Source of the DNA: Saprospiraceae bacterium UBA7328
GTDB taxonomy: Bacteria; Bacteroidota; Bacteroidia; Chitinophagales; Saprospiraceae
DNA: 54,030 bases
Reading direction: 5' to 3'
Assembly: GCA_002471345.1 (NCBI GenBank)
Contig: DKPS01000012.1
Location: 1 to 54,030, forward strand
The notes below the pieces were generated by a model that was given only the letters and a program-made list of their open reading frames with translations, ran no database searches and had not been told where the DNA came from. The position numbers and the translations under genes are program-made. Below are positions 9,899-43,218 of this stretch, in pieces; the stretch's first letter is position 1; each line of letters opens with the position of its first letter.

Positions 9899-12800
9899 AT
9901 GAATTGTATGAGTTTCAAAACTTCAGTTTTATTTAAAGTCATAATTGCCATTGGGCTTATTGTCCTCTTGGCCTTCGACTATACCGACTACGTTATTGAT
10001 AAGCCCAATACGAATGTTTTGAAGTTGGTTAAATCAGTAGATTTTTCAATCTCATCCGAATATTTTGACAAACAATCAAATTGGATATGTGATTGTGAAA
10101 AAAGGGTTCCAATTACAATAAATGGAGGGGCGACTTTGCTGACAGATTATCAGGTTAAATTACAAGTACCGAAGAGCCCTGAAATAAATTCCGCTTATTC
10201 AAATATTCAATTTACATCAAGTAATCAAACCTCTGTAATTGAGCATTGGACACAGACTTTTAATGCAACGAATGGAGTAGTTTGGGTTGAAATACCATCA
10301 ATTCCAACGACTGGTACAACTATATATATGTATTATGGAGGATGTGGATCTGCTGGGGATGCTAGTAACGTTTTTGAATACTTTAATGACTTTACCTCCA
10401 GTGCTGGTATAGTAGATGCTGGAAGTGGTGATTTCTCTACTGGGATGTATGCAGGACTATCCGTATTGAAAAAAGAAAATGAATGTGATCCTAATGGTGC
10501 AGAAATCGCTTTAAATTTCTCTCTAAATGATTATGTTTTAGTCTCTAAGGAAGTCCGACCAAATGATGGGAATTCTAATGCTGGCTGTTCATTGAATAGA
10601 TATGGCGTAGAAAATAGTAGTTATAATGGATATGGGATTAACAGAAATGGACATACAGGGAGTAATTTCGCGATTGAAAGAAGAAGTAATGCTAGAGGAG
10701 GAAATAGCTCGAGTGTAAATTTAAATCCGATTATACCCAGAGATACATTTGTAATAACAGAACTCAGACGATGTACTGCTAATAATGAAAATGAAGGAGA
10801 GCTTTTTAATAATCAAGGAGAATCTCTAGCACAAGTAACTAGTAGTATTACCAGTCGTAATTATTCAGGTTTTGATAGGATCATGGTTCGTGGAGGCTAT
10901 GATTTTTATGTGGATTATGTTGTTCTAGCCAAATATAGTTGCAACCCTCCTACCTATTCTTTTGGCTCCTCAGAAGTCGATGGGCCAGAGGCTATATGTC
11001 AAGATGTTTCAGTTTCATTGGATGCAAGAGGATCTATCACAGTTGACCCTAATTCAGTTGACAACAACTCATCTGACAATTGTGACAACGACCTTTCACT
11101 TTCTCTGTCAAAACCTTCATTTGATTGCAGTGAGGTAGGCATGACAATAGTTACATTGACGGTAACTGATGACGAAGGCAACACCGATCAATGCACAAGT
11201 ACAATTACTATTTCAGATAATACTTCTCCAACCATTTCTTGTCCATCAGATACAACTTATTATGTGTCATCAGGATCATGCACTGTCAGTGGAGTAAGTA
11301 TCGGTAGTGCAACCACCTCAGATAATTGTGGAATTAGTAGTGTGGATAATGATGGTTTAGCCACATACCCATTGGAAGAGACCACCGTTTTTTGGACAGT
11401 AGAAGATAACTCAGGAAATACTGCTACCTGCACACAAGTAATAGAAGTAGTAGATAATATTGATCCTATCATAAGTTGTCCATCAGATACAACCTACAAT
11501 GTATCATCAGGATCATGCACAGTAAGTGGAGTAAGTATTGGTAGTGCAATCACCTCAGATAATTGTGGAATTAGTAGTGTGGACAATGATGGTTTAGGCA
11601 CCTATCCATTGGAAGAGACCACAGTATTGTGGACAGTAGAAGATAACTCAGGAAATACCGCTACCTGCAGTCAAAAGATCACTGTATTAGATAAGATCCA
11701 ACCAGCTCTGGTCTGTGCAGATACCTTAAAAGTTAATGTAGATGGAGGCTTGTGTACAGCAAGTAGCTTAACATTAGCAATCCCAACCATCACAGACAAT
11801 TGCACATTAGTAGATACAAGTAACAATGAATCAGCGATATACCCACTTGGCATTACAGAAGTCACCTGGACAGCAGAGGACAACTCTGGCAATACAAATA
11901 CTTGTATTCAGGTAGTAGAAGTAAAAGATAACATAGCTCCGAGCATTACTTGTCCAACAGACACCACTTATTATGTGTCATCAGTAGAGTGTACAGTAAG
12001 TGGAGTAGATATAGGAAATGCTCTGACCTCAGATAATTGTGGAGTAGATACAGTATATAATGATGGATTAACAGTTTACCCATTAGGAGAAACAACGGTA
12101 ACTTGGACAGTAGAAGATGAGAATGGATTAAGCAATAACTGCAACCAAAAGATCACTTTATTAGATACCATCCAGCCAGTTCTGGTCTGTGCAGACACCT
12201 TAAAAGTAAATGTACATGGAGGCTTGTGTACAGCTAGTGGATTTACATTAGCCACACCAACCATCACAGACAATTGCATTGTTGTAGATACAAGTAATAA
12301 TGAATTAGCTTCATATCCATTAGGAATTACAGAAGTAACTTGGGCTGCAGCAGACAACTCAGGAAACACCAATACATGCATTCAAATAGTAGAAGTAACA
12401 GATAACATAGTTCCGAGCATTACTTGTCCATCAGACACCACTTATTATGTGACATCAGTAGAGTGTACAGTAAGTGGAGTAGATATAGGAAATGCTCTGA
12501 CCTCAGATAATTGTGGAGTAGATACGGTATACAATGATGGACTGACAATATACCCACTAGGAGAAACCACAGTTCTGTGGACGTTAGAAGATGACAATGA
12601 ATTAAGCAATAACTGCAGTCAAAAGATCACAGTATTAGATACCATCCAACCAGTTCTAGTATGTGCAGATACCTTAAAAGTAAATGTAGATGGAGGCTTG
12701 TGTACAGCAAGTGGATTGATCTTAAGCATCCCAACCATCACAGACAATTGCACATTAGTAGATACAAGTAATAATGAATCAGCGATATACCCACTTGGCA

Positions 12801-14065
12801 TCACAGAAGTCACCTGGACAGCAGAAGACAACTCAGGCAATACCAACACTTGTATTCAAGTAGTAGAAGTAACAGATAACATAGCTCCGAGTATTACCTG
12901 TCCATCAGACACCACTTATTATGTGACATCAGGAGAGTGTGCAGTAAGTGGAGTAGATATAGGAAATTCTCTGACCTCAGATAATTGTGGAGTAGATACA
13001 GTTTACAATGATGGATTAACAGTTTATCCATTAGGAGAGGCCACAGTAATGTGGACAGTAGAAGATGACAATGGCTTGAGTAATAACTGTAGCCAAAAGA
13101 TAACAGTAATTGATACGATCCAACCAGTTCTGGTATGTGCTGATACTTTAAAAGTGAATGTAGATGTAGGCTTGTGTGCAGCAAGTGGATTGACTCTAAC
13201 CATCCCAACCATCACAGACAATTGCACATTAGTCGATACCAGCAACAATGCACCATCAACCTATCCACTTGGAATTACAGAAGTCACCTGGACAGCAGAA
13301 GACAACTCAGGCAATTCCAACACTTGTATTCAAGTAGTAGAAGTAACAGATAACATAGCTCCGAGCATTACCTGCCCATCAGACACCACTTATTATGTGT
13401 CATCAGTATCCTGTTCAATTAGTGGAGTAGATATAGGAAATGCTCTGACCTCAGATAATTGTGGAGTTGACACAGTATACAATGATGGATTAACAGTTTA
13501 TCCATTAGGAGAGATCACAGTAATGTGGACAGTAGAAGATGACAATGGATTAAGCAATAACTGCAACCAAAAGATTACAGTATTAGATACAATCCAACCT
13601 GTTCTTGTATGTGCAGACACTTTAAAAGTAAATGTAGATGTAGGCTTGTGTACAGGAAGTGGCTTAACATTAGCAATACCAACCATCACAGACAATTGCA
13701 CCTTAGTTGATAAAAGTAACAATGCGCTATCAACATATCCACTAGGAATCACAGAAGTATCCTGGACAGCAGAAGACAACTCAGGCAATACCAATACTTG
13801 TATTCAAGTAGTAGAAGTAACAGACAACATAGCTCCAAGTATCACATGTCCATCAGACACTACTTATTATGTGACATCAGGAGAGTGTGCAGTAAGTGGA
13901 GTAGATATAGAAAATTCTCTGACCTCAGATAATTGTGGAGCAGATACAGTTTACAATGATGGATTAACAGTTTACCCATTAGGAGAAACAACGGTAACTT
14001 GGACGGTAGAAGATGACAATGGATTAAGTAATAACTGCAGCCAAAAGATGCATATCATGGTCTGA
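9899..14065 (+). CDS. Large HYR-repeat surface protein with DUF2341 domain, 3' end broken
   Basis: The protein has 1388 residues. A hydrophobic segment (LFKVIIAIGLIVLLAF) is followed by a DUF2341-type domain (about residues 60-160, starting CDCEKRVPITI) and a concanavalin/laminin-like sandwich to about 355. About thirteen HYR (immunoglobulin-like hyalin) repeats follow. From about 11,950 they alternate as two types, APSITCPSDTTYYV and QPVLVCADTLKVNV, forming a 158-residue super-repeat. HYR arrays act as adhesive stalks on secreted proteins. The array stops mid-repeat: after SNNCSQK the frame reads MHIMV and stops, while another frame carries sensor-kinase sequence. No C-terminal sorting domain (T9SS or CHU_C type) is present, so the real C-terminus is missing through rearrangement or misassembly. 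Confidence 0.85.
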   Translation: MNCMSFKTSVLFKVIIAIGLIVLLAFDYTDYVIDKPNTNVLKLVKSVDFSISSEYFDKQSNWICDCEKRVPITINGGATLLTDYQVKLQVPKSPEINSAYSNIQFTSSNQTSVIEHWTQTFNATNGVVWVEIPSIPTTGTTIYMYYGGCGSAGDASNVFEYFNDFTSSAGIVDAGSGDFSTGMYAGLSVLKKENECDPNGAEIALNFSLNDYVLVSKEVRPNDGNSNAGCSLNRYGVENSSYNGYGINRNGHTGSNFAIERRSNARGGNSSSVNLNPIIPRDTFVITELRRCTANNENEGELFNNQGESLAQVTSSITSRNYSGFDRIMVRGGYDFYVDYVVLAKYSCNPPTYSFGSSEVDGPEAICQDVSVSLDARGSITVDPNSVDNNSSDNCDNDLSLSLSKPSFDCSEVGMTIVTLTVTDDEGNTDQCTSTITISDNTSPTISCPSDTTYYVSSGSCTVSGVSIGSATTSDNCGISSVDNDGLATYPLEETTVFWTVEDNSGNTATCTQVIEVVDNIDPIISCPSDTTYNVSSGSCTVSGVSIGSAITSDNCGISSVDNDGLGTYPLEETTVLWTVEDNSGNTATCSQKITVLDKIQPALVCADTLKVNVDGGLCTASSLTLAIPTITDNCTLVDTSNNESAIYPLGITEVTWTAEDNSGNTNTCIQVVEVKDNIAPSITCPTDTTYYVSSVECTVSGVDIGNALTSDNCGVDTVYNDGLTVYPLGETTVTWTVEDENGLSNNCNQKITLLDTIQPVLVCADTLKVNVHGGLCTASGFTLATPTITDNCIVVDTSNNELASYPLGITEVTWAAADNSGNTNTCIQIVEVTDNIVPSITCPSDTTYYVTSVECTVSGVDIGNALTSDNCGVDTVYNDGLTIYPLGETTVLWTLEDDNELSNNCSQKITVLDTIQPVLVCADTLKVNVDGGLCTASGLILSIPTITDNCTLVDTSNNESAIYPLGITEVTWTAEDNSGNTNTCIQVVEVTDNIAPSITCPSDTTYYVTSGECAVSGVDIGNSLTSDNCGVDTVYNDGLTVYPLGEATVMWTVEDDNGLSNNCSQKITVIDTIQPVLVCADTLKVNVDVGLCAASGLTLTIPTITDNCTLVDTSNNAPSTYPLGITEVTWTAEDNSGNSNTCIQVVEVTDNIAPSITCPSDTTYYVSSVSCSISGVDIGNALTSDNCGVDTVYNDGLTVYPLGEITVMWTVEDDNGLSNNCNQKITVLDTIQPVLVCADTLKVNVDVGLCTGSGLTLAIPTITDNCTLVDKSNNALSTYPLGITEVSWTAEDNSGNTNTCIQVVEVTDNIAPSITCPSDTTYYVTSGECAVSGVDIENSLTSDNCGADTVYNDGLTVYPLGETTVTWTVEDDNGLSNNCSQKMHIMV
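11951..14046 (+). repeat. 474-bp tandem coding repeat array
   Basis: Equivalent bases of the CP[ST]DTT motif fall at 11951, 12425, 12899, 13373 and 13847, exactly 474 bp (158 codons) apart each time. Each unit encodes one A-type and one B-type HYR domain with high base identity. The last copy ends after only 200 bp, at the junction with kinase sequence. Confidence 0.92.
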
Positions 14066-34312: not shown

Positions 34313-34457
34313 TTTAGAAAAATAATGATTTCGGCTTTGAATTGAGCATAGTTTTATGAGAACTTATAATTTGAATTGTCTAGAGAATAGAATAAAAATG
34401 AAACCTCTCTATTTTATCCGACTAATTTGAATTAAGTTAGGCTTATATAGAGTGCGC

Positions 34458-37400
34458 ATGGATCAAATTCTTGAAGACAGTAAATTTCAAAAGACATTAG
34501 AAGCTATATCTGAGTCTAGTGATCAATCGATAGAACAAATAAATAGAGAGGCTTCTGAATACCTGAAAGAGCTGTATTGTGAACAAAAACCCCTTGTTAA
34601 TGCAATCACATTACAGATATCACAATTTATTCTTGAAAGGGCTTATGACAAATCGATCGATGTAAAAGCATCAGAGATTAAGAACTTAAGCAAGCTTATG
34701 AGGCGACATCCTGTTGCTTTTGTAATGACCCACAAGACCTATATTGATATGATGGTCCTCGGAGCTGTTCTGATTCGTTATGGGTTGGAGCTCCCTTATA
34801 CTTTTGCTGGTATTAATATGAGCTTCCTTGGACTTGGTGAGTTAGGCAGAAAATCTGGGGTAATTTTTATCAGAAGATCATTTAAAGATAATCTTGTATA
34901 TAAAGCTACGCTTCGACACTTTATAAGTCATTTAGTTGGAAATAAGAGTCATTTCATGTGGGCTATAGAAGGTACCAGGTCGAGAACAGGAAAGCTAGTC
35001 TGGCCACAAATGGGCATACTTAAGTATATAGCTGAAGGAGATGAACAATCAGATAAAGAAGTAAAATATGTGCCAATATCCGTAGTGTATGATCTGATAC
35101 CTGATGTCCAAGACATGACAGAAGAGGGTAGAGGCAAGGATAAGAAATCAGAAAGCTTGATGTGGTTTTTAAACTATATCAAAAACATGAGCGGTGATTT
35201 TGGAAGAATTTCGCTCAGGATAGGAGAACCAATAGAGCGTTCTGCAGACCAAATGGCTTCTATTCCACTTGAAGAAGATTCACTTTACAGTAAAAAATAT
35301 TCGCTACCTCGATTCGCCTTTGAATTGGTTCATGGAATTAATCAAATTACTCCTGTCACTACTTCATCATTAGTATGTACGACTCTGTTGAGCAAATTTG
35401 CGGCACATAAAAATGATATAGAATCGGACGTCCATGAATTGATGTCTATTGTGGAACACATCAGACCAGATGCTTTAGTAGATAGAGGTAAATCGATTAA
35501 TGAAAGTGTTCAGTCTGCCCTCAACCTTATGATACAAGGTGGAATAATTCAGCAATTGGGCCAAGGAGTAAAGGCTAAATATTCTATTGTAACCAGAAAT
35601 TATTTGTCAGCTATTTATTATTCGAATATGGCTGTGCATCATCTTTATCATAGGGCATTTATTGAGATGGCACTATTCAAAGTGTCTAATGCAAAAAGTA
35701 ATAGACTAAATACTTTTTGGGAAGAGATTATGAACTTGAGAGACCTCTTCAAATTTGAATTTTTCTATTCCAGAAAATCGGAATTTACGGACGAAATAGA
35801 ACAAAATCTCACTCTTCTTTCTTCAGATTGGGAAAGTCAATTAAGTGATTCTTCTTATGACATCAAAAGCAAAATATCTAGCCAAGCTACCTTGGTTTCA
35901 CTTGTAATACTTAATCCATATATAGAAGCCTATAAAGTTGTCATTCATGCCCTTCGTACATTAGAGCACGATGCATATGAAGATGAGAAATCTTTACTTG
36001 AGGCCTGTATCTTCGTAGGGGAGGAGATGCATTGGATGGGACAAATACATCGTGTAGAATCTGTATCTAAACCTTTCCTGCAAAATGGAATTAGATTGGC
36101 CAAAAATCGTGGATTGATTCCTAGTCCTTCAAAACCAAATAAAAGAGGCCTTTCATCTTTTGCTAAAGAATTAGATTCCTATTCTTCAAGACTAAAGGAT
36201 CTACAATCCATATCGCTAAAAGTCAATTCAAAAAGAAAAACAAGGACCATTCATATTGATAAATATGTAGTACCTGGAACTCAAAGTGCTTCAGTTTCTA
36301 CAGATGTTATGAATGCTGAAGGAGGAGCAAACATCGGCGCTTTCTTTGATCTGGACCGTACGTTAATAAAAGGATTTTCTGCCAAAGAATTTTTCCAAGA
36401 AAGGCTCTTAAGTGGTAAAATGTCTGGTCGGGAGGTTGCTGCTCAATTTTCTGGTGTATTGGTATATGCCATAGGGAATAAAAATTTTGCAGGCCTTGCA
36501 GCCACAAGTGCACAAGGAGTAAAAGGTGTAAATGAAAAGATATTTATTGATCTAGGAGAAGAGGTCTATTTAAAACATCTTGCAGACGCGATTTATCCAG
36601 AGTCTAGAGCCCTAGTAAAATCACATATGGCTAAAGGGCACACGGTGGCAATTATATCGGCAGCAACACCTTATCAGGTGAATCCTGTAGCGAGAGATTT
36701 AGGTACAGAGCATGTGATGTGTACTCGTATGGAAGTAAAGAATGGAAAGTTTACAGGAGAGATTGTAGAGCCAGCATGCTGGGGAGAAGGAAAATATATC
36801 GCCGCGAAGGAATTAGCAGATAAATTCGACCTAGATCTAAGTAAGTCATATTTCTACACTGACAGTCATGAAGATCTTCCTCTTCTAGAAATGGTAGGAA
36901 ATCCAAGACCTATAAATCCTGATAATGAGTTACAGAGTTTAGCTTTTCAAAATGATTGGCCCGTTTTAAGATTTAATGACGAAATCCAACCAGGAGTTTC
37001 AAATATTGTAAGAACGGCTCTTACAATGGGAAGTATAATCCCAGCAGCATTGACAGGCATGGCGTCTACGATGCTCACAGGCTCTAAAAGGGATGGAGTG
37101 AATTCCATGATGGCCACATTAGGAGAACTCGGAACAAAGGTGGCAGGAATAAAAATGTCTGTTAAAGGAAAAGACAATCTTTGGTCTCATCGTCCGGCAG
37201 TTTTCCTTTTTAATCATCAGAGTAGTGCAGACCTTTTCATCGTGAGTAAATTACTTAAAAAAGATGCAGTTGCTATTGCAAAAAAAGAACTAAAATCGTC
37301 TCCTATTGGACCTTTGATGACAGCTGCTGGGGTCATTTTTATTGATAGGGCGAATAAGGATAAGGCTATAGAGGCCATGAAACCAGCTATAGAAGCTTTA

Positions 37401-37718
37401 AAAACCGGAACATCTGTAGCTATTGCTCCTGAGGGAACTAGGAGTTATGATTATAAGTTGGGTCCTTTCAAGAAGGGAGCTTTTCATCTTGCCATGGCAG
37501 CAGGGGTTCCTGTCGTTCCTATTGTCATCAAGAACGCTCATGATGTAATGCCAAGAGGTAGAAGCCTTGTAAGACCGTCTGTTGTAGAAGTGGTGATTTT
37601 GAAACCAGTGTCTGTGGCTGACTGGACGAAAGAAAATATGAATGAAAGGATTGCAGATGTAAGATCTCTTTATCTAAGAGAATTACAACAAGATACCTTG
37701 GGGCCAATAAGTAGCTAA
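34458..37718 (+). CDS. Fused glycerol-3-phosphate acyltransferase / HAD phosphatase / lysophosphatidate acyltransferase
   Basis: A 1086-residue fusion. Residues about 60-280 form a PlsB-like acyltransferase with H92-K-T-Y-I-D97 (HX4D) and E171-G-T-R. A helical region follows. At about 625-830 is a HAD subclass-IB phosphatase: F-F-D631-L-D633-R-T-L-I, SAATPYQVNPVARDLG, and Y-T-D-S-H-E-D-L-P. At about 895-1060 is a PlsC-like acyltransferase with H920-Q-S-S-A-D925 and P-E992-G-T-R. Together they could turn glycerol-3-phosphate into lysophosphatidate, phosphatidate and diacylglycerol. In mycobacteria similar parts are separate neighbouring genes (plsB2; a HAD-PlsC protein) beside a WS/DGAT gene. 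I chose the ATG at 34458 over a GTG at 34452. It converges on the WS/DGAT gene, 19 bp apart. Confidence 0.9.
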   Translation: MDQILEDSKFQKTLEAISESSDQSIEQINREASEYLKELYCEQKPLVNAITLQISQFILERAYDKSIDVKASEIKNLSKLMRRHPVAFVMTHKTYIDMMVLGAVLIRYGLELPYTFAGINMSFLGLGELGRKSGVIFIRRSFKDNLVYKATLRHFISHLVGNKSHFMWAIEGTRSRTGKLVWPQMGILKYIAEGDEQSDKEVKYVPISVVYDLIPDVQDMTEEGRGKDKKSESLMWFLNYIKNMSGDFGRISLRIGEPIERSADQMASIPLEEDSLYSKKYSLPRFAFELVHGINQITPVTTSSLVCTTLLSKFAAHKNDIESDVHELMSIVEHIRPDALVDRGKSINESVQSALNLMIQGGIIQQLGQGVKAKYSIVTRNYLSAIYYSNMAVHHLYHRAFIEMALFKVSNAKSNRLNTFWEEIMNLRDLFKFEFFYSRKSEFTDEIEQNLTLLSSDWESQLSDSSYDIKSKISSQATLVSLVILNPYIEAYKVVIHALRTLEHDAYEDEKSLLEACIFVGEEMHWMGQIHRVESVSKPFLQNGIRLAKNRGLIPSPSKPNKRGLSSFAKELDSYSSRLKDLQSISLKVNSKRKTRTIHIDKYVVPGTQSASVSTDVMNAEGGANIGAFFDLDRTLIKGFSAKEFFQERLLSGKMSGREVAAQFSGVLVYAIGNKNFAGLAATSAQGVKGVNEKIFIDLGEEVYLKHLADAIYPESRALVKSHMAKGHTVAIISAATPYQVNPVARDLGTEHVMCTRMEVKNGKFTGEIVEPACWGEGKYIAAKELADKFDLDLSKSYFYTDSHEDLPLLEMVGNPRPINPDNELQSLAFQNDWPVLRFNDEIQPGVSNIVRTALTMGSIIPAALTGMASTMLTGSKRDGVNSMMATLGELGTKVAGIKMSVKGKDNLWSHRPAVFLFNHQSSADLFIVSKLLKKDAVAIAKKELKSSPIGPLMTAAGVIFIDRANKDKAIEAMKPAIEALKTGTSVAIAPEGTRSYDYKLGPFKKGAFHLAMAAGVPVVPIVIKNAHDVMPRGRSLVRPSVVEVVILKPVSVADWTKENMNERIADVRSLYLRELQQDTLGPISS

Positions 37719-37737: not shown

Positions 37738-39555
37738 CTATTTCATTGGTGGAACCTTACTCAAAATTTTACCCAAATTCATCGCCATTGCAGAATCACC
37801 ACCTACTGCTAACCTTCCTTGAATTACTGCAGTTTGAACTTTAAGGTCACCTTTTACAATTTTTAAGAAGTTCTTATCTTGAACAGTAAAGGTGACATCA
37901 GGACTTTTTGTTTTTCCTCTATTCAAAGATGGTTTCGCCCCAGTTAGGTCTAATACCCATTCTGAAGATTTGGGGCCAGCAATATTAAATTGAAAAAGAC
38001 CTCCTTTTTCAATTGTCTTCGCATTTTTCTTTAAGTATTTATTGAGGTGGTCAAAGAACTTGTCGGATTCTGGAGTTTGTTCTTTTTTAGATTTTTTTGC
38101 CTCTATTTCATCTTGTTTTTCTAAGATTATTTTTTCTAATTCATTGGCAGATTCTCTTAGATACTTTGTGAAAACCTTTACATCCGGCATGGAATTGCTA
38201 TCTGATGTAGCACTTATATTCACTTCTCCGTTATAACTAAAGATGGTTATAATTAGTCCCATACCATCCATAATTGGTGCCATACTCATTACCGCATAGA
38301 GCTTATGACCTTGCATGTATAGTGGAAATTGAGGGCCAGGAACATTGGTAATTACGCAATTAAATACGGGATTATGCATTTTTGCCATATTGTATCTGGA
38401 ATAGATCTTAGCTGCTTGATTAGCTATTCCATAAGGTACTACTTCAGCCATATTTGCCAATGATTTAGCCCCCATTGCTCCTTGGTAAGTTTTCCCTTTT
38501 ATCGTGTTCTCATAAATATTCTCTAGCCTTTCTATAGGGTCTTCTATATGAGTACCTAGTTGTACCAACATATTGGATACTTTGTTCCCTCCTTCATTTT
38601 CTTCAGATTTTTGACGGACTGAGATAGGGACCATGGCTACAAGTGGTTTTGAAGGCAGCTTGTCTTTTTCAAGCAAGTATCTTCTTAATGCTCCAGCACA
38701 TATCCCAAGAATTACATCATTCAGTGTAGTGCCCATAATTTTTTTCAATGCTTTCATCCTCTCTAAAGAAAGCATTATGCCACTCCATTTTCTCTGTGCT
38801 GAAATAATGCCATTTATTGGAGTTTTAGGAGCAGTAAATGGAGCAGTAGGTAAATCTATATGTTGAACTCTCGTAAGCATTCCTGCTTTCGCAGTGGCGG
38901 ATACTGTATTAGCTATGATCTTTGGAAATTTAAGAGGATTTCGAGCAAAACTTATTGCACTTCTCGCTGCTAAGGAAAGTTCATTTGGAAGTGGTTCAGG
39001 TTTGAATGGCCTTGGTTCTTTTATTTCTCCTGACAAGTCCGTTCCGTCAAAAATAAGACTTAACATTCCAGCTCCTGCAACTCCATCGACAGCCACATGA
39101 TGAATTTTGCCAATTATTGCGACGGATCCCTTGGGTACTTGATTTATGGCATCGAGACCTTCCACAAAAGTATAATGCCAAAGGGCTCTAGATCGATCTA
39201 ATGGTTCACTAAATATATCAGAGGCGATGTCTCTCAGACTGTCCCAATCTCCAGGCCTTGGAAGAGCAATATGATTCACATGTAAATCAAGATTAAAATT
39301 TGGATCATCCACCCAATAGGGGTAATCCACGCCCAGGGGAACTGACATTAACCTTTTTCTTAATAATGGAAACTGATGAATTCTAGCGGCAATCGTACTT
39401 TTAAATGTGTCATATTTAAGTGATCCTTCTATAATACATACACTTCCTACATGCATAGGACTTGTGGATGACTCTCCAAACAAAAAAGTTGCATCAAGTC
39501 CAGTAATGGGTTTGATGTTAGAAAGATTTAAGCCTTCAAGAAGTTTATCTACCAT
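37738..39555 (-). CDS. Wax ester synthase/diacylglycerol acyltransferase with C-terminal SCP2 domain
   Basis: A 605-residue enzyme of the WS/DGAT (bacterial DGAT) family that esterifies acyl-CoA to diacylglycerol or fatty alcohol, making triacylglycerol or wax esters. The catalytic motif is H152-H153-V-A-V-D157-G158, supported by the N-terminal PITGLDATFLFGE, PLDRSRALWHYTF, TLNDVILGICAGALRRYL and NVPGPQFPLYMQGHKL. Family members are usually about 450-480 residues. Here a Lys/Glu-rich linker (about 465-500) leads to an SCP2 sterol-carrier-like domain (about 505-605: FQFNIAGPKSSEWVLDLTG; VQTAVIQGRLAVGGDSAMAMNLGKIL) that could bind or deliver lipid. It is convergent with the acyltransferase fusion. 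Confidence 0.92.
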   Translation of the reverse strand: MVDKLLEGLNLSNIKPITGLDATFLFGESSTSPMHVGSVCIIEGSLKYDTFKSTIAARIHQFPLLRKRLMSVPLGVDYPYWVDDPNFNLDLHVNHIALPRPGDWDSLRDIASDIFSEPLDRSRALWHYTFVEGLDAINQVPKGSVAIIGKIHHVAVDGVAGAGMLSLIFDGTDLSGEIKEPRPFKPEPLPNELSLAARSAISFARNPLKFPKIIANTVSATAKAGMLTRVQHIDLPTAPFTAPKTPINGIISAQRKWSGIMLSLERMKALKKIMGTTLNDVILGICAGALRRYLLEKDKLPSKPLVAMVPISVRQKSEENEGGNKVSNMLVQLGTHIEDPIERLENIYENTIKGKTYQGAMGAKSLANMAEVVPYGIANQAAKIYSRYNMAKMHNPVFNCVITNVPGPQFPLYMQGHKLYAVMSMAPIMDGMGLIITIFSYNGEVNISATSDSNSMPDVKVFTKYLRESANELEKIILEKQDEIEAKKSKKEQTPESDKFFDHLNKYLKKNAKTIEKGGLFQFNIAGPKSSEWVLDLTGAKPSLNRGKTKSPDVTFTVQDKNFLKIVKGDLKVQTAVIQGRLAVGGDSAMAMNLGKILSKVPPMK

Positions 39556-39704: not shown

Positions 39705-40481
39705 TCACATAGATGGGTAAAACATCATCTCTTGAATTCTGGTCTCTGGAGAAAATGGAGCCCAAATTGCTTCACTATACTGTAACCTGTCTGCTATTAT
39801 TTCAAGAACAGAAGGGTTCACTCCGAGGCCAAAATGACTTCCTCTGACCTGAACATTTTGGTGAATATTGCTTTCTTGTTGTTCCATACATGTTTGCCAT
39901 GGTACCACACCATCTTCTTTGGAGTAAATAGCAGTAGTCGGAACTGGTGCAGGGTTTGGAATATCATTTAAAAGTAATGGATCTATATCTTGTGCTGACT
40001 TTCCATTTGTAATAAATTTATATATCCATGCTGCATTATTTGGAAGGTTTATCCCTCTGAAAGGCGAGCCTAATGTGATAATCTGTCTAATTAAGTGAGG
40101 TCTTTTCTTTGCTATTTGTCGGGCAAATACTCCACCTAGGCTCCAGCCAATTATACTAATTGGCTCTCCACTTACTTTATATATATCTTCGACTTTTTCA
40201 AGGAGGAGGTCCACATAATCTTCATTTGCATAGTTCCTTCCAATATCCCATCCATAAGATTGATAACCTATCTTTTTTAGAAACCTTCGAAGGGGTTGAG
40301 TAGAAACATCTGTAGCCATAAAACCTGGTAATACAAGTACAGCATGACCATCTCCTGTTTCTTCCTGTTTCTTTAAGAAGTTATAAGGAAAAAAAGTCCC
40401 ATATTCAAATACAGCTCTACTTGCTTCTGTCATTAACCAAAATAAAGATGGCTTTTTGATTGGGTTCTGTTCTTCAGTCAT
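39705..40481 (-). CDS. Alpha/beta hydrolase, lipase-like
   Basis: A 258-residue alpha/beta-hydrolase. The nucleophile elbow is G112-W-S114-L-G116; a catalytic Asp is probable in TTAIYSKEDGVVPWQ and His in VRGSHFGLGVNP. The oxyanion strand is AVLVLPGFMATD. It has no signal peptide. Similar proteins are encoded beside WS/DGAT genes in other bacteria, and neighbouring carboxylesterases occur in the mycobacterial plsB2-plsC-WS/DGAT region. Here it would serve turnover of stored acylglycerols or acyl transfer. It lies upstream of the WS/DGAT gene in the same direction, 149 bp away. Confidence 0.8.
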   Translation of the reverse strand: MTEEQNPIKKPSLFWLMTEASRAVFEYGTFFPYNFLKKQEETGDGHAVLVLPGFMATDVSTQPLRRFLKKIGYQSYGWDIGRNYANEDYVDLLLEKVEDIYKVSGEPISIIGWSLGGVFARQIAKKRPHLIRQIITLGSPFRGINLPNNAAWIYKFITNGKSAQDIDPLLLNDIPNPAPVPTTAIYSKEDGVVPWQTCMEQQESNIHQNVQVRGSHFGLGVNPSVLEIIADRLQYSEAIWAPFSPETRIQEMMFYPSM

Positions 40482-40744: not shown

Positions 40745-41062
40745 TTAGTTCTTACTGAACAAACCTTTAATTCTAGATCTGCTATCTAACATTTGACCTT
40801 TTAAAGAGTCTAATGTGTCGAATACAATATCTTGTGTATTTGCTGTTAATTTCAAGCCACCTTTTACAGCTTTAGACGCTACATTTTGCCATTGTTCTCC
40901 TCTTACCACTGCCTCTTTGATTAGGTCATCAGAATTGTCAAGCATAAAGTCATTAACGTCTTTTGCTCCTTCGATAACTCTATCTACAACATTAGTAATA
41001 TTGAAGTTTTGAGCTGCTTTTGTTGCTGTCTTAGCTGTTTTCTTTGCTGTCGTGTTTGCCAT
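40745..41062 (-). CDS. Phasin-like granule protein (small)
   Basis: A 105-residue protein, nearly all amphipathic helix, with an Ala/Lys/Thr-rich start (ANTTAKKTAKTATKAAQ). The core (about 20-100) has phasin-like character and aligns by eye with the first half of the protein encoded just upstream: EQWQNVASKAVKGGLKL... and SRSRIKGLFSK here match EKWQNMFSKGF... and SGQRVKSLLG there. Phasins coat polyester or neutral-lipid granules. With WS/DGAT genes next door, a coat on triacylglycerol/wax ester droplets is likely but inferred. Its promoter carries a SARP-type direct repeat. Confidence 0.7.
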   Translation of the reverse strand: MANTTAKKTAKTATKAAQNFNITNVVDRVIEGAKDVNDFMLDNSDDLIKEAVVRGEQWQNVASKAVKGGLKLTANTQDIVFDTLDSLKGQMLDSRSRIKGLFSKN

Positions 41063-41098
41063 GATATTTTTTTTATTGATTATTTTTTAATTATAGTT

Positions 41099-41106
41099 CA
41101 AATATA
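41099..41106 (-). promoter_or_regulatory. -7 box TATATTTG of the small phasin-like gene
   Basis: On the minus strand this reads TATATTTG, an exact TAnnTTTG match 36 bp upstream of the ATG at 41062. It lies 9 bp downstream of the direct repeat at 41116-41133. No -33 TTG is present, as expected for an activator-dependent promoter. Confidence 0.6.
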
Positions 41107-41115
41107 TATTCAGCC

Positions 41116-41133
41116 AGTTACAGCTGAGTTACA
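41116..41133 (-). promoter_or_regulatory. SARP-type operator candidate A: TGTAACT-N4-TGTAACT
   Basis: On the minus strand TGTAACT CAGC TGTAACT forms two heptamers with an 11-bp period. The identical 18 bp occurs at 41831-41848. SARP-family activators bind heptamer direct repeats with 11- or 22-bp period whose 3' copy lies about 8 bp from the -10 box; here the gap to the -7 box is 9 bp. A SARP-like regulator is encoded at 41880-42695. Confidence 0.7.
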
Positions 41134-41144
41134 TTATCTCAGAT

Positions 41145-41780
41145 CTACTTTGTAATTGCCTTAGCCTGATTCACCCATGTACTCGAATCGTGCATTTGAA
41201 ATCTTGGCCCTGCTGTTTTAAGTACTTTTTCTAAAGTTTCCATTTTTGCTGTAGCTAAATCAGCAATACTTTTAATGCCAACTTCATTTAGCAATCCTGC
41301 TATTTTTGGTCCTATTCCAGTAATGTCAGTAAGTTTTGATGGAGTTTTAATAGTCTTAGTTTTAGGAGCTCCAGTAACTTTTTTTGTCTTTGGTGTTAAA
41401 GCCGTTGTTTTAGGCGCAAAAGCAGTAACTTTTTTTGTCTTTGATGTTGATATGGTTGCTTTAGGTGCAGCGGTAATAACTTTATTAGTAATGTTCTCAT
41501 TCTTTCCTAGACCTAAAAGTGATTTTACTCTTTGTCCACTTGATCTGTATTGATCCCATAGCGTTTCTGCTACTGTAAAAGATAAATCAATCCCCTTTTC
41601 TACTAAAGGAGTACTAGCAGTAAATCCTTTAGAAAACATATTTTGCCATTTTTCTAGGTTATCTACAGTAACTTCTACAGTTTCTTTTGATACATTGATA
41701 ACTCTATCATGAATTTTACCGTACTCCTTTTTCAGGTTCTTTCTAGTAATATTCTTCTTGATCTTTGTTGCTGTTGACAT
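41145..41780 (-). CDS. Phasin-like protein with basic linker and helix-hairpin-helix domain
   Basis: The protein has 211 residues in three parts. Residues 1-95 form a phasin-like helical domain related to the small neighbour (EKWQNMFSKG; AETLWDQYRSSGQRVKSLLG). Residues 98-146 form a low-complexity Lys/Thr/Pro/Ala linker with repeated APKT and SKTKKV/PKTKKV units, like histone-like tails. Residues 147-211 are a helix-hairpin-helix domain (LTDITGIGPKIAGLLNEVGI, ending GPRFQMHDSSTWVNQAKAI). The layout suggests a granule-coat protein that also touches DNA, comparable in idea to PhaF or PhaM, which tether polyester granules to the nucleoid. It carries the same operator as the small phasin-like gene. 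Confidence 0.7.
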   Translation of the reverse strand: MSTATKIKKNITRKNLKKEYGKIHDRVINVSKETVEVTVDNLEKWQNMFSKGFTASTPLVEKGIDLSFTVAETLWDQYRSSGQRVKSLLGLGKNENITNKVITAAPKATISTSKTKKVTAFAPKTTALTPKTKKVTGAPKTKTIKTPSKLTDITGIGPKIAGLLNEVGIKSIADLATAKMETLEKVLKTAGPRFQMHDSSTWVNQAKAITK

Positions 41781-41813
41781 GCTAAATACTTTCTGTTTGT
41801 AATAATTTTATAA

Positions 41814-41821
41814 CAAAGATG
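41814..41821 (-). promoter_or_regulatory. -7-like box CATCTTTG of the large phasin-like gene
   Basis: On the minus strand this reads CATCTTTG, one mismatch from TAnnTTTG, again exactly 9 bp downstream of the direct repeat (41831-41848) and 33 bp upstream of the ATG at 41780. Confidence 0.45.
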
Positions 41822-41830
41822 AAAGTCGAT

Positions 41831-41848
41831 AGTTACAGCTGAGTTACA
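41831..41848 (-). promoter_or_regulatory. SARP-type operator candidate B: TGTAACT-N4-TGTAACT
   Basis: An identical 18-bp copy (plus-strand AGTTACAGCTGAGTTACA) of the site at 41116-41133, in the promoter of the large phasin-like gene. The flanking bases differ, so the 18 bp is the conserved unit rather than part of a longer duplication. Confidence 0.7.
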
Positions 41849-41879: not shown

Positions 41880-42695
41880 TTAACTTATTTGTTCAATACT
41901 TTTAAGGAGAGCTTTTGTTCTTGGTAAAGGAGATATTCCGAATTCTTCATCCAAAACCTTTTCACATTCAGCATATGTTCTTAAAGCTTGAGGTCTGTTA
42001 CCATTCACGAGATAGGCTTCCATTTGAATACGGTATGCATCTTCCCAAGTTTTGTCTATAAGTAAGGCACTCTTTGACAATCGGATGCTTTCCATAGGAT
42101 TGGACGGAATCAATAATTCAGCCAGATTGATAATTCCACTTAATGTTATTACTTGGATTCTTTCTCTTTCTTCACTGCACCAATCTTCATACATTCTTTC
42201 TGGTAAGAAGGGGCCTTCATATAGCTTTATTGCTGCAGTGTAAGCTTGAATGGCCTTATCTTTTTGATTGTTAATAAAGTTGTTTCCCATTTCAATAAGC
42301 TTTTCCATGATGTCTAGATCAAGCCAGATATATTCCATGTTAAGCTGATAAGTGAGTCCCTGTCTTAATACATATTTGGGGTCAGTTCTGTTTGGTCGAT
42401 TTGGTTCGAGGGCTTTATTGATACCATGCATGGCTACTTTGAAATCTCTGTCTCCTGATACTTTGTTTGAATCCTCCCATAGTCGATTAACAATTTGTTC
42501 TTTATGAAGACCGCCTCTGTGACGTGCATTAATCAGGAATTGAAGGAGTTGGAGCGTTTTATCTCGACCCCAATATTTTTTATCAACACTGTAACCTTCT
42601 ACTATTGCTTCAAACCTTCCTAATGTATAGAGTCTTAGATCCTTAGATGGATTATCCTTAATAAGACTCTCTATTTCATTGAAGTTTTCTGACAT
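41880..42695 (-). CDS. SARP-like transcriptional regulator (winged helix + BTAD)
   Basis: A 271-residue regulator. The N-terminal part (about 18-105: LRLYTLGRFEAIVEG; YWGRDKTLQLLQFLINARH; HKEQIVNRLWED; FKVAMHGINKAL) is an OmpR/SARP-type winged helix. The C-terminal part (about 115-265: LDLDIMEKLIEMGN; AAIKLYEGPFLPERMYEDWCSEERERI; AYRIQMEAYLVNGNRPQALRTYAECEKVLDEEFGISPLPRT) is a bacterial transcriptional activation domain with TPR-like helices. SARPs act as monomeric-domain dimers on direct repeats. It is the likely activator of the two phasin-like genes. It is in an operon with the upstream 165-residue protein (25 bp apart). Confidence 0.88.
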   Translation of the reverse strand: MSENFNEIESLIKDNPSKDLRLYTLGRFEAIVEGYSVDKKYWGRDKTLQLLQFLINARHRGGLHKEQIVNRLWEDSNKVSGDRDFKVAMHGINKALEPNRPNRTDPKYVLRQGLTYQLNMEYIWLDLDIMEKLIEMGNNFINNQKDKAIQAYTAAIKLYEGPFLPERMYEDWCSEERERIQVITLSGIINLAELLIPSNPMESIRLSKSALLIDKTWEDAYRIQMEAYLVNGNRPQALRTYAECEKVLDEEFGISPLPRTKALLKSIEQIS

Positions 42696-42720: not shown

Positions 42721-43218
42721 CTAGCTTTTTATTTTGTCAATTTTTTTATCTAGAAGAACAATCTTGTCTGAAATGGATTTCATTTCTGATAAGATATTTT
42801 GAATATCTGATCTAGAAGCTGTTCTCCAAGAGTCAATTTCTAATTTTTGTCCAATTTCTTCGCCTACATCAGTGAGTTGTTCCTTAATATTTGCTACTTG
42901 TGCTTGTGGATCTTTGATAGTCTCCATCATCATCTTTGGAGCGTTTTTGGCCATTTTTTTCCAAATGTCAAAACTTTTACTCAAGAGCCCGTCTTGTTCT
43001 TCTTTAGTCTTATGTGAAGTGGATGAAAGTGTCAGTGAAGTGAGATTTTCTTGAATAAATGATAATGCGTCCTCAAGTTCTGAGAAGTTTTTCTCTTTTC
43101 CACCTTGTATATGGGAGATTTTACCTCTCCATTGTACATTTTCTTCACCTGTATTATCCTCAAAAAATTGTTGGGTGAATCGTATCATAAAAGAGGCAGT
43201 ATTTTTATTATCAGGCAT
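42721..43218 (-). CDS. Unknown protein linked to granule regulator
   Basis: I do not recognise this 165-residue cytoplasmic protein. The N-terminal 60 residues hold a compact domain (SFMIRFTQQFFED; VQWRGKISHIQGGKEKNFSELEDALSFIQENL). A middle helix rich in K/M follows (FDIWKKMAKNAPKMMMETIKDP), and the C-terminus is a coiled coil (IQNILSEMKSISDKIVLLDKKIDKI). The amphipathic helices recall phasins or granule-associated regulators. It is the first gene of a two-gene operon with the SARP-like regulator, so a role in sensing or coating granules is plausible but inferred. Confidence 0.6.
   Translation of the reverse strand: MPDNKNTASFMIRFTQQFFEDNTGEENVQWRGKISHIQGGKEKNFSELEDALSFIQENLTSLTLSSTSHKTKEEQDGLLSKSFDIWKKMAKNAPKMMMETIKDPQAQVANIKEQLTDVGEEIGQKLEIDSWRTASRSDIQNILSEMKSISDKIVLLDKKIDKIKS

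Follow-up and report, generated by a model that had tools for sequence, protein, structure and literature searches.

In the literature SARPs (Streptomyces antibiotic regulatory proteins) figure as activators of Streptomyces antibiotic clusters. A related design outside Actinobacteria is HilA of Salmonella, which combines an OmpR-like DNA-binding domain with a direct-repeat box. The sigma-A promoter of Bacteroidota includes a TTG at -33. In extracts of a 2024 review SARPs are termed genus-specific (PMC10972967). Their operators, as described in extracts of PMC10936776, have repeats with a period of 11 or 22 bp, of which the 3' one is separated from the -10 element by 8 bp. In the afs box, according to the same source, the units occupy -40..-30 and -29..-19, and the SARP dimer, in place of the -35 groove, carries sigma region 4. 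The sigma-A box is placed at -12..-5 in an extract of PMC9723704, and neutral-lipid storage in Bacteroidota is called unexplored in part of a 2023 study (PMC10351704). Here we analyse DNA of Saprospiraceae bacterium UBA7328 (GCA_002471345.1, contig DKPS01000012.1, positions 1-54,030, hereafter the window), in which two identical heptamer direct repeats precede two phasin-like genes beside the gene of a BTAD regulator. We consider it very likely that a SARP-type protein binds such TGyAACT repeats of 11-bp period and activates promoters without the -33 TTG, in a narrow regulon of granule genes.

Identical operators before two phasin-like genes

The operators, their promoter boxes and the genes next to them are as follows.

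41831..41848, minus strand: SARP-type operator B, TGTAACT-CAGC-TGTAACT, 5' of phasin-like gene B and kept in relatives
41814..41821, minus strand: -7 box CATCTTTG, one mismatch to TAnnTTTG, 9 bp past operator B
41116..41133, minus strand: SARP-type operator A, an 18-mer identical to B, 5' of phasin-like gene A
41099..41106, minus strand: -7 box TATATTTG, 9 bp past operator A
41145..41780, minus strand: phasin-like protein B, 211 aa, with a C-terminal helix-hairpin-helix (HHH_5)
40745..41062, minus strand: phasin-like protein A, 105 aa, without a Pfam family at E<=0.01
41880..42695, minus strand: SARP-type regulator, 271 aa, winged-helix DNA-binding domain and BTAD
42721..43218, minus strand: E165, a 165-aa protein whose gene adjoins the regulator

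The original prediction placed identical TGTAACT-N4-TGTAACT repeats 5' of both phasin-like genes, each ending 9 bp short of a -7-like box and with no -33 TTG. Coordinates and identity are confirmed: both minus-strand repeats read TGTAACTCAGCTGTAACT and agree in 18 of 18 bases, spacer included. The 9-bp distance holds at both boxes, and no TTG lies at 15-24 bp spacing from either. The missing TTG is no separate evidence, because those positions fall within the operator itself. The repeat was also expected to be uncommon in the genome, and a pattern scan of the whole assembly (5,098,250 bases, 288 contigs) gave the exact pair at two sites, both the reported ones and both before phasin-like genes. 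A terminator-like hairpin (41110-41127) overlaps operator A, none being listed at operator B; we take it as chance.

A predicted SARP fold for the regulator

The BTAD domain scores 65.4 bits in the window regulator, the sole BTAD protein found in its genome, and occurs in 27 of 27 rows of the regulator alignment (27 of 32 available sequences, window protein included). Trans_reg_C scores 16.2 bits in the window protein, under its cut-off of 26.2, and matches 22 of the 27 rows at E<=1. The structure model aligns best, over full length, with AfsR and EmbR, which bears out the earlier description of this neighbour as SARP-like. As modelled, the protein has the SARP domain plan, with an N-terminal OmpR-type winged helix and a C-terminal BTA domain. 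A sequence-only PDB search with the single regulator protein found no SARP; a profile-based PDB search reached AfsR weakly (E 0.011).

Promoter geometry and specificity

Promoters were compared in a set of 54: 15 from the order of the window, 34 from Flavobacteriaceae (17 loci), 2 before E165 and 3 from a Rhodothermia-like lineage. The comparison set held 100 genomes (the own genome and 99 relatives), to which nineteen named Saprospiraceae and Flavobacteriaceae loci were added (L068 and L074 of G019 being one contig), and ten further stretches chosen for carrying the pattern, among which L119, L121, L122 and L123 are without a promoter-type pair.

The gap from the last heptamer to a TAnnTTTG-like box is 9 bp in 53 of the 54 promoters (40 boxes perfect, 13 with one mismatch), and in the exception, G016, a perfect box follows after 8 bp. 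No gap other than 9 in the range 2-21 shows a box match of 5 or 6 of 6 more than twice. TTG is found at spacings 15-24 from the -7 box in none of the 54. With the TAnnTTTG-like box present and the -33 TTG absent throughout, these promoters depart from the usual sigma-A form of Bacteroidota. They do have the heptamer direct repeats of 11- or 22-bp period that mark SARP operators, and their 9-bp gap agrees with the SARP spacing of 8 bp, being 1 bp off and counted to another definition of the box. A third heptamer-like match (>=5 of 7) stands precisely 11 bp further upstream in 9 of the 15 promoters from the order of the window. Between 7 and 39 bp every other distance is seen 0 to 2 times: not once at 10 or 12, and twice at 22, which is in register. 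The logo of 35 promoters reads TGyAACTCAnnTGTAACT-N9-TAnnTTTG, with little conserved just upstream. Bases past TTTG are conserved too (about YAYCRTAA), chiefly in Flavobacteriaceae, and lie perhaps around the transcription start; the window (41083-41098 and 41798-41813, minus strand) fits poorly.

A composite pattern, TGYAACYN4TGTAACYN13TTYG with up to one mismatch, was scanned through 20 regulator-holding genomes (16 Flavobacteriaceae, one Saprospiraceae metagenome-assembled genome and three Rhodothermia-like, about 78 Mb). All 36 matches, two per Flavobacteriaceae genome and one per other genome, fall within loci already known, and the reversed control gave 2. Since the pattern was derived from the sites that it then scored, the informative part is that no matches occur elsewhere. 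In a sample of 395 genomes of the phylum a narrower pattern, again including the -7 box, matched exactly in G000 alone and with one mismatch in five orthologue-less genomes (G261, G321, G368, G370, G430). It missed G111, G131 and G227, where the sites differ at two pattern positions; the wider pattern and reading of the loci found them.

The same geometry bears on the sign of regulation. PhaR is the repressor of polyhydroxyalkanoate (PHA) systems acting at phasin promoters, and the present regulator might likewise repress, blocking the -33 region from the same operator and being freed when a granule surface forms. The operator does overlap the -33 region, and the regulated genes resemble granule-coat genes, the usual targets of PhaR. 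A repressive SARP, Atr32, is also mentioned in an extract of PMC10972967. However, the SARP fold speaks against repression, and a missing TTG -33 element at usual spacing in all 54 promoters together with a constant distance to the -7 box would be required by an activator, whereas a repressor could do without. We hold repression to be very improbable and retain activation.

Co-occurrence of regulator, site and phasin-like genes

The regulator has matches at E<=0.001 in 18 of the 100 genomes. A clear orthologue group comprises 13 genomes (E<=7e-83, a cut set by us) from 13 genera and three families, and the remaining five match it weakly, through other BTAD proteins. Eleven genomes contain exact sites. 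Ten of them belong to the 13 regulator holders; the eleventh is among the 87 genomes that lack the regulator, and its site sits within a 1302-codon frame. The three regulator genomes that have no exact site (G019, G042, G061) carry one-mismatch sites before a phasin-like gene. The phasin-like core was found in the same 13 genomes and in none of the other 87, with extra matches in G005 and G023 to the model tail only. Fisher values for co-occurrence are 1.8e-10 and 1.4e-16, relatedness being ignored.

A scan of 42 loci gave 60 pairs with <=2 mismatches that lie clear of long frames and are followed within 400 bp by a gene start. The gene that follows is phasin-like in 57 cases, E165 in two and an unlabelled 84-aa frame in one; this count is descriptive, with overlapping registers and the L068/L074 duplicate counted apart and ten loci chosen by pattern. 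The repeat is thus present at orthologous promoters across families, as the original prediction would have it, and its interpretation that the adjacent BTAD regulator acts through the repeat, by presumed binding and activation, is supported. One-mismatch sites also lie between E165 and a divergent WS/DGAT (wax ester/triacylglycerol synthase) gene in G030 (L072:9806) and G014 (L077:9621). They face the E165-regulator pair, a position that suggests self-activation; such a self-directed site before the pair is absent in the window.

Alternatively, the site could be read by another conserved DNA-binding protein, the BTAD gene being a mere neighbour. The E165 gene adjoins that of the regulator both in the window and in all of the relative loci examined (31 of 31), and a TetR-type gene is also present in a Winogradskyella locus. 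However, the site is still present where phasin-like genes lie on other contigs than the regulator (drafts G030, G050, G061) or at about 17 kb (G014) and 48 kb (G016) from it, and among the 100 genomes exact promoter sites are confined to holders of the regulator. The operator geometry is of the SARP type. E165 has no confident fold relative of any kind (model pLDDT 71; no Foldseek match at E<=0.001), and the window has no unassigned frame of its size between the regulator and WS/DGAT. A different reader is therefore very improbable, and the BTAD protein stays the preferred one.

Several points weigh against the proposed activation by this regulator. AfsR reads bases with R92 and T88, which correspond to G91 and V87 in the regulator (hidden Markov model alignment); we read this as altered specificity, not as a lost fold. 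Phasin-like genes and regulator never separate (13/13, 0/87), so no regulator-less case shows decay of the site. The phasin-like profile (22 members) itself derives from genomes with the regulator and so is biased towards detecting phasins in them, and the relatives are not independent. All 54 promoters were drawn from loci with the regulator or the pattern, and the register in G099 was set by the 9-bp gap itself. In Flavobacteriaceae a third heptamer is not apparent (1 of 22 at -11, 2 of 22 at -12). Loose matches are common: at <=2 mismatches at least two occur in 10 of 100 shuffles of the window, and in the own genome the reversed control gives 91 against 36 for the pattern (2 exact, 1 one-mismatch within a coding frame, 33 two-mismatch); in the 100 genomes at <=1 mismatch it gives 218 against 126.

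These loose matches speak for a chance repeat, and two like promoters could also stem from a recent duplication. However, a first-order model expects 0.05 exact pairs genome-wide, and 4e-7 18-mers are expected in common to two upstream regions of 100 bp. Outside the 18-mer the two window promoters agree in 27 of 68 aligned columns, in AT-rich DNA, so segmental duplication does not look likely. Conservation of the site in other families and in the Rhodothermia-like lineage already contradicts the chance reading, and we give chance or duplication next to no probability. The significance of the repeat rests on its exactness, position and conservation; loose matches show no enrichment.

Proposed mechanism

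From the observed sequence, position, conservation and co-occurrence of the site and from the predicted fold we infer binding, cooperativity, activation and sigma contact as follows.

Step 1: The 271-aa regulator would bind as adjacent monomers to TGyAACT heptamers placed every 11 bp, that is one helical turn. Taking the sigma-A box at -12..-5, the units fall at -39..-29 and -28..-18, near those of the afs box in the extracts cited above, which suggests cooperative binding of at least two monomers with sigma docking on the protein.

Step 2: As the last heptamer ends 9 bp before TAnnTTTG, the bound protein would cover the place where sigma would read the -33 TTG.

Step 3: Activation would follow by offering RNA polymerase another dock, as AfsR does at afsS. 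The regulon would be very narrow, with the phasin-like genes, in some species the E165-regulator pair, and in the Rhodothermia-like lineage a gene run of the polyhydroxybutyrate (PHB) type.

Genes around the operators

Regulator and E165 lie upstream of the phasin-like genes, and three further genes follow downstream:

39705..40481, minus strand: alpha/beta hydrolase
37738..39555, minus strand: WS/DGAT wax ester/triacylglycerol synthase with SCP2 domain
34452..37718, plus strand: fused GPAT / HAD phosphatase / acylglycerol-phosphate acyltransferase

The pattern scan of the window found no operator match belonging to WS/DGAT itself. Near this gene a single frame of 1088 aa (34452-37718) joins GPAT and HAD phosphatase to an acylglycerol-phosphate acyltransferase, and diacylglycerol might thus be made on one chain.

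Neither window phasin-like protein passes the curated Pfam cut-off of the phasin families PF05597, PF09361 or PF09602. Two of the 22 aligned members match each family weakly (best E 1e-4, 0.022 and 0.011, respectively), protein B reaches 26.6 of 250 bits with NCBIfam PhaH, and weak matches among the 22 related proteins include apolipoprotein, rubber elongation factor and phasin models. With no curated match, the proteins are called phasin-like for their size and composition, their similarity to each other and their context. The helix-hairpin-helix domain of protein B (41223-41336) suggests a link between granule and DNA. E165 orthologues share an N-terminal three-strand/helix domain with the motif GESxVQWRGxVSHVQGG, followed by a helical tail. 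Elsewhere in the window (9899-14065) lies a 1388-aa protein with many similar repeats of the type SDNCG...YNDGL...YPLGET.

Spread in the phylum and storage polymers

In the phylum sample the regulator had matches in 13 of 395 genomes at E<=1e-30; four are of orthologue grade (G000 included) and nine are parts of longer frames. G111, G131 and G227 hold a regulator orthologue at 238-255 bits, and directly 3' of it come TGTAACC-N4-TGTAACY, 9 bp, TACYTTYG and then E165. Past E165 a 130-132-aa protein and further genes follow on the same strand. In NCBI the source name of this lineage is "Bacteroidetes Order II. Incertae sedis", which we take to be the Rhodothermia group. Judged by these loci, a deep spread of the regulator-site pair within the phylum is supported. 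The original prediction spoke of a transfer of SARP logic into Bacteroidota; transfer, as against common descent, is unproven.

In the gene run of G131 family models give PhaC 490 bits against a cut-off of 365; PhaE-, PhaB- and PhaA-like proteins stay below theirs (83 of 155, 368 of 436 and 630 of 740), and the PhaA-like protein passes the general thiolase model. The run of regulator, site, E165, small phasin-like frame, PhaE-like, PhaC, PhaB-like and PhaA-like genes spans L149:6040-12811, L150:6826-13720 (G131) and L151:1387-8315, where the frames of L150 were scanned with family models and those of the other two matched by eye. The gene content suggests that the regulator goes with PHB genes in this Rhodothermia-like lineage. 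In the window's order it probably goes with wax ester or triacylglycerol: WS/DGAT occurs in 20 of the 100 genomes, namely all 13 with the regulator and seven others, one of them weak. A class III PHA synthase, considered as the partner there, exceeds its cut-off in 8 of the 100 genomes and in 0 of the 13 with the regulator (class III model only).

We tentatively raise a further idea, which we think rather doubtful, that a one-regulator switch is older than the split of Bacteroidia and the Rhodothermia-like lineage. Its SARP protein would take over the -33 function of sigma, be dedicated to carbon-storage granules and have E165 as a granule-surface sensor that restrains the activator until granules form. 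As the stored polymer switched between PHB (PhaC) and wax ester/triacylglycerol (WS/DGAT), the switch would have remained associated with the coat proteins. Its age by descent, the role of E165 and the direction of the polymer change are guesses.

Comparison with known systems

One dedicated SARP-type activator probably switches on the genes of storage droplets or bioplastic in these bacteria. An open-access literature search found no earlier report of the regulator or the site. New here are a SARP-type regulator with its own operator, the host phylum, the promoter class and the regulon; the SARP kind itself is already known. A nearly identical operator geometry (within 1 bp) thus appears on another kind of promoter, before storage-granule genes, in another phylum. 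The "sigma adaptation" model can therefore be tested on RNA polymerase from a second phylum. The geometry also suggests a defined on-switch of 35 bp for use in Bacteroidota, and the system points to regulated coat genes for their neutral-lipid storage.

With PhaR-type repressors the system has the control of granule-coat genes in common, yet PhaR is a repressor of another fold. EmbR of Mycobacterium tuberculosis has the same two domains and in addition FHA, which the present regulator lacks. HilA differs from it in host, box and targets. Like the Streptomyces SARPs AfsR, PimR, DnrI and ActII-ORF4, as covered by extracts of PMC10936776, PMC5930380 and PMC10972967, it has their fold, 11-bp heptamer direct repeats in two or three copies, and an operator by the -10/-7 box that for most of them lies over the -35/-33 region. 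Unlike them, it belongs to a Bacteroidota host and a TAnnTTTG promoter, is without R92 and T88, and has a small fixed regulon, its sites preceding phasin-like and PHB-type genes and not antibiotic clusters. Its heptamer is TGTAACT, whereas extracts give CGTT(T/C)ATCGNN for AfsR (PMC10972967) and CGGCAAG for PimR (PMC5930380).
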